Assembly: GCA_937924525.1 (NCBI GenBank)
Contig: CALDSU010000018.1
Coordinates: forward strand, 1 to 64,000
Origin: an uncultured Bryobacteraceae bacterium
GTDB taxonomy: Bacteria > Acidobacteriota > Terriglobia > Bryobacterales > Bryobacteraceae
DNA length: 64,000 bases
Reading direction: 5' to 3'
In this document: one piece after another, positions 13,140-55,211 of the stretch
How the letters are laid out: each line of letters begins with the position of its first letter
Position numbering within the stretch: position 1 is the first letter of the stretch
Position numbers and translations under genes: made by a program
The notes under the pieces: model-generated
What the model was told of the DNA's origin: nothing
Database searches by the model: none
Seen by the model: the letters and a program-made list of their open reading frames with translations, nothing else

Positions 13140-13353
13140 GTCCGTTCGTCTCGCAGGACCGTCTGGCCCTCAGTTACGTTATCGGCGCCCGGCGGCGGGT
13201 CTTTAGATCAGCGCCGAACGACCCGCCGTGGCCCGCGTTCCGCCCTGAAACAACTGTCCTAACCTGACACACCGCCGCCTAGCAGGCGTACAGTTTTTGC
13301 ACGCCAAGTAGACACCTTCCCCAACCAGATATTGAAAAAACAGCACTTATGGT
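13140..13353. other. Non-coding region upstream of the sigma-54 element, with inverted repeats
   Basis: No gene is seen. GGCGGGTC (13194-13201) and GACCCGCC (13220-13227) form an 8-bp inverted repeat with an 18-base loop. TGTC-N7-GACA lies at 13255-13269, about 110-125 bases before the predicted RNA start, where sigma-54 activators usually bind. Neither is proven to be an operator. Confidence 0.3.
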
Positions 13354-13370
13354 TTGGCACGCGCGTTGCA
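13354..13370 (+). promoter_or_regulatory. Sigma-54 (-24/-12) promoter
   Basis: The sequence TTGGCACGCGCGTTGCA matches the sigma-54 consensus YTGGCACGrNNNTTGCW at every constrained position except the weak purine. The GG (-24) and GC (-12) are correctly spaced. Predicted transcription start is about 13381. It needs an enhancer-binding activator; none is encoded in the window. Confidence 0.75.
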
Positions 13371-13380
13371 ACCTGAATGG

Positions 13381-13591
13381 GCGTGACTGCACAACGCCAG
13401 GTTCGAGGAAAGGCAATTGATCCCCTTTTCAGCCCACCTGATTACCGCTCAACCATGACGTCACAATTCCTGCTCTCACCTGACTTCCCCGCACAATTGC
13501 CTCCTCGAGCCTGAAGCAGGATCGAATTTCGAGCGCAGCAAGAAAATTCGGAGATACAGCGCGCACGGCGCGGGGTATCTCCGTTTTTTTT
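13381..13591 (+). ncRNA. Candidate sigma-54-dependent structured small RNA, about 211 nt
   Basis: Between the -24/-12 element and an intrinsic terminator lies a stretch without a convincing gene but with strong predicted structure. There is a 5' hairpin GGCGT/ACGCC (13380-13384 with 13394-13398). A long stem pairs TCGAGGA+GGCAATTG (13403-13409 and 13412-13419, AA bulge) with 13494-13508, 15 bp in all. A small hairpin CCTG-AAG-CAGG (13510-13520) precedes the terminator. The long stem closes a 74-base loop (13420-13493) that is poor in G and rich in C, with TCCCC and CACCT strings suited to pairing with ribosome-binding sites. A 45-codon frame from 13377 starts before the predicted transcript, so coding is unlikely. 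It does not look like tmRNA, 6S or RNase P to me. Confidence 0.6.
13549..13591 (+). terminator. Intrinsic terminator of the candidate small RNA
   Basis: CGGAGATAC (13549-13557) pairs with GTATCTCCG (13575-13583). An inner CGCGC/GCGCG stem encloses an ACG loop, and eight T follow directly. The U-tract lies on the plus-strand side only, so the direction is clear. Confidence 0.88.
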
Positions 13592-13998
13592 CCGGCAGTA
13601 CACCCCTACCTCCGAGATTCTTTTCAAGACCGGTGTGCCCCGGACGAAAAGCTTTCCATGCAACGTGCAGATGTGGAAACCAATCACGAGGAATTGGAAG
13701 TCTCATTGAGCCTTCTGCAACTGGCCCGCGCCCTCGGGCAACCCCAGGAGGAGGCGAGCCCGGCGGCCGGCCCGCTCGCCCGCTTAGAGCAAGAGCGCCA
13801 GTGTTAAACCGAGGACTCCTTAGCCTTTCGCGTCACGGGCATCGACTGCACAGGCTCCCTTCCGCCGCCACCAGATCAGCCGTATTGTCCCCGAGCCTGT
13901 GTCTTCAGGCTGCAGAGGCCCGCTCGCTTGCCTCTCGCGGCTGCGCTCAAGACTGGGTTACGGGGCGCCGCATCGCGCTTGACAAAGGGGTCGTCCAC
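13592..13998. other. Intergenic region downstream of the small RNA
   Basis: Apart from one weak small frame (13658-13807) I see no gene, terminator or repeat that I can support. Longer open frames here have no start signal or family resemblance. Confidence 0.4.
13658..13807 (+). CDS. Possible small protein of 49 residues
   Basis: The frame begins MQRADVETNHEELEVSLSLL and ends with a Q/E-rich tail, ARLEQERQC. It is acidic, mostly helical in character and has no signal peptide. No clear Shine-Dalgarno or promoter precedes it, and the strong terminator at 13591 would block read-through from the sigma-54 promoter. I list it because it has a more plausible composition than the other frames here, but it may be spurious. 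Confidence 0.18.
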   Translation: MQRADVETNHEELEVSLSLLQLARALGQPQEEASPAAGPLARLEQERQC

Positions 13999-55082: not shown

Positions 55083-55211
55083 ACCCGGCGGGGTGCAATC
55101 CTCTTGCCAACCCGCGGAAACCGTCCTGAGCGCGCAAGTGACTCGCATCGCGTCCTCTCCGGACGCGCAATTTTGCGCCCTCAGCGAATACACACAAGCC
55201 GCTGGCTTCCA

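Follow-up and report, generated by a model that had tools for sequence, protein, structure and literature searches.

What is made from the 859-nt gap that holds a sigma-54 promoter in this Bryobacteraceae genome? In the window, by which we mean the whole 64-kb stretch of DNA analysed, both genes bordering the gap lie on the opposite strand, with a BACON-domain protein upstream and an NHL-repeat protein downstream. The initial annotation placed an undescribed sigma-54-dependent structured small RNA here. With its start set from the promoter spacing and its end from the terminator, the predicted RNA is ∼211 nt long (13381-13591, + strand). No transcript data are available for it.

The sigma-54 (-24/-12) promoter TTGGCACGCGCGTTGCA lies at 13354-13370 on the + strand. 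It was first described as near-perfect and is in fact perfect and, at zero mismatch, unique in the genome. It is the single perfect TTGGCACG-N4-TTGCW of the 5.5-Mb genome, the only zero-mismatch TGGCACGNNNNTTGCW in the 64-kb window and the only zero-mismatch TTGGCACGNNNNTTGCW across the genome. When up to one mismatch to TTGGCACGNNNNTTGCW was allowed, 10 sites were found in the genome compared with 7 for the reversed control pattern, which is background. The window has a second sigma-54-like site with one mismatch (TTGGCAAGAGGATTGCA, 55094-55110, - strand); such sites are at this background level. The genome contains one copy of rpoN, 23 activator-domain matches (15 of them strong) and an Hfq gene.

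The predicted RNA folds around one long stem. The 5′ arm (13398-13419, + strand) is made of an outer helix (13398-13409), an AA bulge (13410-13411) and an inner helix (13412-13419), and the 3′ arm is at 13494-13513 on the same strand. The two helices, 13398-13409/13502-13513 and 13412-13419/13494-13501, give 20 pairs in total. Thus the stem and the AA bulge originally proposed are present, but the length is 20 bp rather than 15. The apical loop (13420-13493, + strand) has 74 nt with 8 G by count, in line with the initial description.

We compared these folds with shuffled sequences. The 211-nt RNA has a z of -4.0, and none of 200 dinucleotide shuffles was as good. When the terminator was left out, the fold stood out less: for 13381-13535, z was -2.7 and 9 of 1000 shuffles equalled it; for 13395-13520, z was -3.7 (3 of 1000). 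Of 400 shuffled versions of the gap, one contained a stem of at least 20 pairs. However, the 64-kb window holds two further 20-pair stems, and between 0 and 4 such stems appeared in each of 20 shuffles of the whole window. We therefore dropped stem length alone as proof: since such stems also occur elsewhere and in shuffles, the stem by itself is not decisive, whereas its conservation is.

The intrinsic terminator predicted at 13549-13591 (+ strand) consists of a hairpin (13549-13583) and eight T (13584-13591). The stretch 13540-13591 folds with -27.8 kcal/mol and a z of -7.0, and no shuffle out of 1000 was as good, so the strong terminator inferred at the outset is borne out. The 5′ hairpin proposed at +1 did not hold up. 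With 4 bp (GCGT/ACGC) and a pair probability of 0.45 it is weak, and an alignment of 34 relatives shows no conservation of its sequence.

No same-genus genomes were present in the set searched for homologues. BLAST of 13340-13600 against 101 genomes gave no homologue recognisable among the loci inspected. At E≤1 there were matches in 77 of the 101 genomes, mostly 15-40 nt long; eight matched loci were inspected by eye and rejected, as they appeared to be coding DNA or promoter-only matches. The homologues that BLAST missed were found with a single-sequence covariance model, which gave matches in 17 of 121 family genomes at E≤5, the window's own genome included. The window's second match with this model (13541-13661, - strand) was handled as a self-match of the palindromic stem.

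A second model was seeded with seven members, the window and six others, each picked because it combines a long stem with a GGCGTGA start and a sigma-54-like site. The promoter itself was excluded from the model. At E≤1 it gave 136 matches, spread over 130 of the 257 order genomes. Opposite-strand matches at L097, L098 and L111 were dropped as self-matches of the palindromic stem. Of the 92 matches with E up to 9.2e-4 we examined 90; the G262 match, a second copy in G021 and all weaker matches were left out. From these 90 members we built the third and final model. All E-values of the covariance models are rough.

The covariance search suggested in the initial annotation thus yielded homologues in 176 of the 257 order genomes at E≤0.1, representing 62 of 84 genera, with 169 of the genomes at E<1e-3. 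All 176 belong to the family of the window; 163 have one match and 13 have two. Across the phylum, 396 genomes were scanned; an E below 1e-3 was reached in the window's own genome alone, and the next best match was at 0.002. When named genomes were searched for a promoter-plus-GCGTGACT pattern, 29 records matched, of which 21 are acidobacterial and 8 are not. The acidobacterial records include Bryobacterales, Bryobacteraceae, Solibacteraceae, Candidatus Solibacter, Candidatus Sulfopaludibacter, Terriglobia and Acidobacteria. As the covariance model confirmed 21 of 21 acidobacterial records and none of the 8 others, we place the carriers in or near the Bryobacteraceae.

Pairing in the stem is maintained across these homologues. 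Every one of the 15 modelled pairs changes on both sides in the model alignment, which has 88 distinct rows; 172 cells show such changes, compared with 59.4 after shuffling. Pairs can form in 88.9% of cells, compared with 77.0% when shuffled and at most 44.8% when slid. This alignment is biased towards the model. When 34 members were aligned with MAFFT alone, RNAalifold found the inner helix unaided, with compensatory changes in 7 of 7 pairs; the outer helix was not predicted on that alignment. Comparison of the homologues shows that the predicted two-part stem is under selection for pairing.

The promoter is conserved as well. GG-N10-GC is found within the expected 26-nt stretch in 90 of 90 members, compared with 43 of ∼267 displaced control windows. 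The GG and GC of this comparison are fixed by the search design. Among the positions free of the search, all 90 members have the T of TGC, 87 have a T preceding GG and 81 a T preceding TGC. Two adjacent values of the distance from the promoter to the GCGTGA start account for 80 of the 90 members. Only 7 members were picked partly for their promoter and the other 83 were not. Given this conservation, expression of the RNA should need RpoN and an activator, for which there are no expression data. Immediately 5′ of the promoter, L137, L138 and L142-L145 carry inverted repeats (GGCGGGAAATAC...TATTTCCCGCC type), which may either terminate transcription of the upstream gene or serve as activator sites.

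With homologues in 176 of 257 genomes, 15 covarying pairs, a promoter in 90 of 90 members and no Rfam match (below), the central proposal of the initial annotation is well supported. We are highly confident, on comparative sequence evidence and without transcript data, that the locus represents a new sigma-54-controlled structured RNA family; the Solibacter-1 consensus was not compared.

Rfam 15 gave no gathering-score match in the window, and seven member loci gave only three chance-level matches, with E of 1.5 or worse. In the open-access literature on sigma-54 small RNAs, on anti-Shine-Dalgarno small RNAs and on RNAs of Acidobacteria, Bryobacteraceae or Solibacter, none of the matches listed describes this RNA; a description may have been missed. 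Qrr and GlmY are sigma-54-dependent small RNAs made from -24/-12 promoters. The RNA of the window shares this promoter type and differs from them in host group, in architecture and in having no Rfam match. The alpha-r14 small RNAs of rhizobia (NfeR1) are similar in having an anti-Shine-Dalgarno-like C-rich unpaired motif while their stem sequences differ (PMC10746234). They have three hairpins, each with an unpaired CCUCCUCCC, whereas the RNA of the window has one long hairpin with a loop of ∼70 nt. No motif as invariant as the alpha-r14 CCUCCUCCC exists in the present family, which in turn has a sigma-54 promoter. With one main hairpin and no CCTCCTCCC, the predicted RNA does not qualify as an alpha-r14 RNA. 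Acido-1 (RF01686) and Acido-Lenti-1 (RF01687) are likewise structured RNA candidates of Acidobacteria (table in PMC2864571); they have Rfam accessions, whereas the present RNA matches no Rfam family. The table also lists the Solibacter-1 motif as a candidate RNA of one organism only, Solibacter usitatus, without an Rfam accession. In contrast, the present RNA is family-wide and mostly occurs once per genome.

The loop is conserved in composition. In the 90 homologues it is 64-78 nt long and has on average 10.5% G and 43% C, compared with 28.5% G and 30% C in the flanks. The annotated resemblance to an anti-Shine-Dalgarno surface received only mild support. CCUC occurs 2.17 times per loop compared with 1.33 after shuffling and is present in 85 of 90 loci, and UCCUC occurs 0.76 times compared with 0.32. 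However, CUCC (1.04 compared with 1.33) and CACC (0.96 compared with 1.19) are not enriched in the 90 loops and fall below their shuffled values. Directly 3′ of the 5′ arm, UCCYC is exact in 46 members, a close variant is found in 23 and neither in 21.

What the RNA does is less clear. We cautiously lean towards a free-standing regulatory RNA of ∼210 nt in Bryobacteraceae which acts in trans through its C-rich loop; this is inferred, without expression data. An unknown signal would act through one enhancer-binding protein to have the RNA made, and the stem would stabilise the RNA and display the loop. Being C-rich and G-poor, the loop can stay single-stranded. Its C-rich stretches (UCCYC, CCUC and, in one clade, CACCUC) would bind G-rich ribosome-binding sites in target mRNAs by base pairing and, probably with Hfq, reduce the translation of these mRNAs. 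The 5′ end of the RNA may in addition give rise to a short peptide. Several observations weaken the trans-acting reading: CUCC and CACC are not enriched, the UCCYC is exact in only about half of the members, and a terminator-like hairpin within ∼140 nt of the stem was found in only 37 of 90 members (12 of 90 in the antisense control). No target was found among the start regions of neighbour genes, where loop pairing within the own species was no better than with other species. The tolC-like neighbour was rejected as a target (own-species pairing better in only 14 of 32), as was the ∼100-aa gene described below (15 of 26).

The main rival to a trans-acting RNA comes from a short reading frame. 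The gap had been said to hold no convincing gene, which does not hold as stated: a nearly leaderless open frame GTG...TGA (13383-13514, + strand; 43 aa) spans the stem-loop, may encode a peptide and has a counterpart in 75 of 90 homologues. In these 75, one frame that runs through the 5′ arm has an ATG or GTG no more than 12 nt from the model start; for the other frames this is so in 7 and 6 members. The start codons are mostly 18 nt (GTG) or 15 nt (ATG) ahead of the same codon (five members without). Stops in the 5′ part are found in 11 of 90 members for the favoured frame and in 73 and 48 for the others, while the loop contains a stop in 73 of 90 compared with 54 and 34. The favoured frame has 24-28 codons in 44 of 90 members, and 15% of the frames are open up to the loop end compared with 58% with shuffled loops. 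The in-frame start codon suggests translation, and the RNA may thus be dual-function: a near-leaderless ORF, mostly of 24-28 codons and stopping in the loop, would yield a peptide as a main product, and the stem-loop would stabilise or regulate the mRNA of this peptide. A share of bacterial small RNAs are reported to carry coding ORFs (PMC5521070). Substitution scores, calculated without 11 of the 90 loci because these had no anchor, favour the frame in the low-scoring group (0.36 compared with 0.06), but the high-scoring group hardly separates it from another frame (0.22 compared with 0.16). A synonymous excess of no more than 1.17 was measured in 23 pairs from 24 loci, frame lengths vary widely overall, and the loop motif AGTCACCTCGC is kept as nucleotides across two different frames. 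Because the members share ancestry, the frame bias is partly inherited and the frame counts are inflated. In addition, no Shine-Dalgarno site fits ahead of so early a start. We consider a dual-function RNA or small mRNA a minority possibility that has to be kept in mind. The initial annotation held that a conserved protein frame across this region would refute the RNA. Such a frame is present in part, by its start codon and with little codon-level conservation. As the frame closes in the loop in 73 of 90 members and its codon-level signal is slight, the RNA explanation is not replaced, but "non-coding" is not settled.

Another explanation is that the RNA is a 5′ leader which attenuates a downstream gene, with the stem competing with a terminator. 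A terminator-like hairpin does begin inside the 3′ arm (-7 to -9) in 8 members (L111, L132, L141, L151, L152, L158, L175 and L098), and at -17 in 2 more; in those loci, stem and terminator would be mutually exclusive. A gene for a ∼100-aa CPCC-motif protein also lies downstream on the same strand in 26 of 88 loci. However, this gene is not downstream in the other 62. It is missing at the window, where the RNA carries a terminator of its own and no conserved gene follows. The gene adjoins the RNA in one clade. It was found in 8 of 11 genomes searched, and seven of these 8, the window's included, have gene and RNA on different contigs. Both G003 and G021 carry the RNA and gave no match to the gene. 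The copy of the window's own genome on another contig rules out a leader of the ∼100-aa gene as a general rule. On the upstream side, a co-directional tolC-like gene ends before the RNA in 58 of 85 loci with enough sequence and is absent at the window; these genes resemble one whose protein, the only one tested, matches the outer membrane efflux family PF02321. Since no fixed gene lies beside it, the RNA is not simply the leader of one gene, and we find a cis-acting leader improbable. The varying neighbours, the unlinked ∼100-aa gene and the lack of a pairing gain within the own species argue for an independent RNA acting elsewhere. The C-rich loop of such an RNA might titrate an RNA-binding protein, as CrcZ does, instead of pairing with mRNAs. 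CrcZ carries repeated CA motifs, unlike the present loops, in which no single-motif repeat array was noticed (without a repeat analysis). To our knowledge, no C-binding partner protein for the loop is known here. In favour of a decoy, the composition of the loop is better kept than its sequence, and the Pseudomonas RNAs CrcZ and CrcY, which are RpoN- and CbrB-dependent and sequester Hfq-Crc, are also free-standing RNAs from an RpoN-dependent promoter (PMC8657755). The RNA of the window differs from CrcZ in being one long hairpin with a C-rich loop and in matching no Rfam family. We give the decoy little credence.

A further reading, which we regard as rather unlikely, combines some of these elements into a sigma-54-switched, translation-gated RNA. 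A near-leaderless ORF of ∼25 codons would run through the 5′ arm and stop in the loop, its translation would open the stem and expose the C-rich loop and the 3′ arm, and the freed 3′ arm could form a terminator in some species. If so, one molecule would couple the signal of an enhancer-binding protein to ribosome activity, and the product would be a peptide, a regulatory RNA or both.

Acidobacteriota are a common soil phylum in which RNA regulation is little known, and the RNA reported here would be a family-wide regulatory RNA in this phylum. The covariance model, the predicted RpoN dependence and the strongly conserved promoter make its expression, targets and activating signal directly testable.

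We also noted a possible pseudoknot between GUGAC at the 5′ end (13383-13387, + strand) and GUCAC in the loop (13460-13464). The loop contains UCAC in 41 of the 64 members with a 5′ GUGA, compared with 49% for shuffled loops. A fifth pair is possible in 36 of the 41 members with both GUGA and UCAC and cannot form in five; it is mostly C-G, with A-U, G-C, U-A and U-G in five members. Since pairs 1-4 are nearly invariant and a double change is seen in only one of six pairs (34-member alignment), this pseudoknot of one clade is no more than a suggestion.

The ∼100-aa protein has the form M.KGMFEVECPCC...KRDIDLD and is encoded downstream of the RNA in L095-L098, L102-L104 and others, with L247 as the copy of the window's own genome. 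It has no Pfam or NCBIfam match. After the terminator of the window, a 49-aa ORF (MQRADVETNHEELEVSLSLLQLARALGQ..., 13658-13807, + strand), also without a Pfam or NCBIfam match, looks similar, judged by eye, to short ORFs that follow the RNA in L101 and L099. In L010, a sigma-54-type site at 1501-1529, with flanks resembling those of the window, precedes a gene for a small secreted protein (MKNRVAQLLSVGIAL...), which is likely another sigma-54 target in the family.
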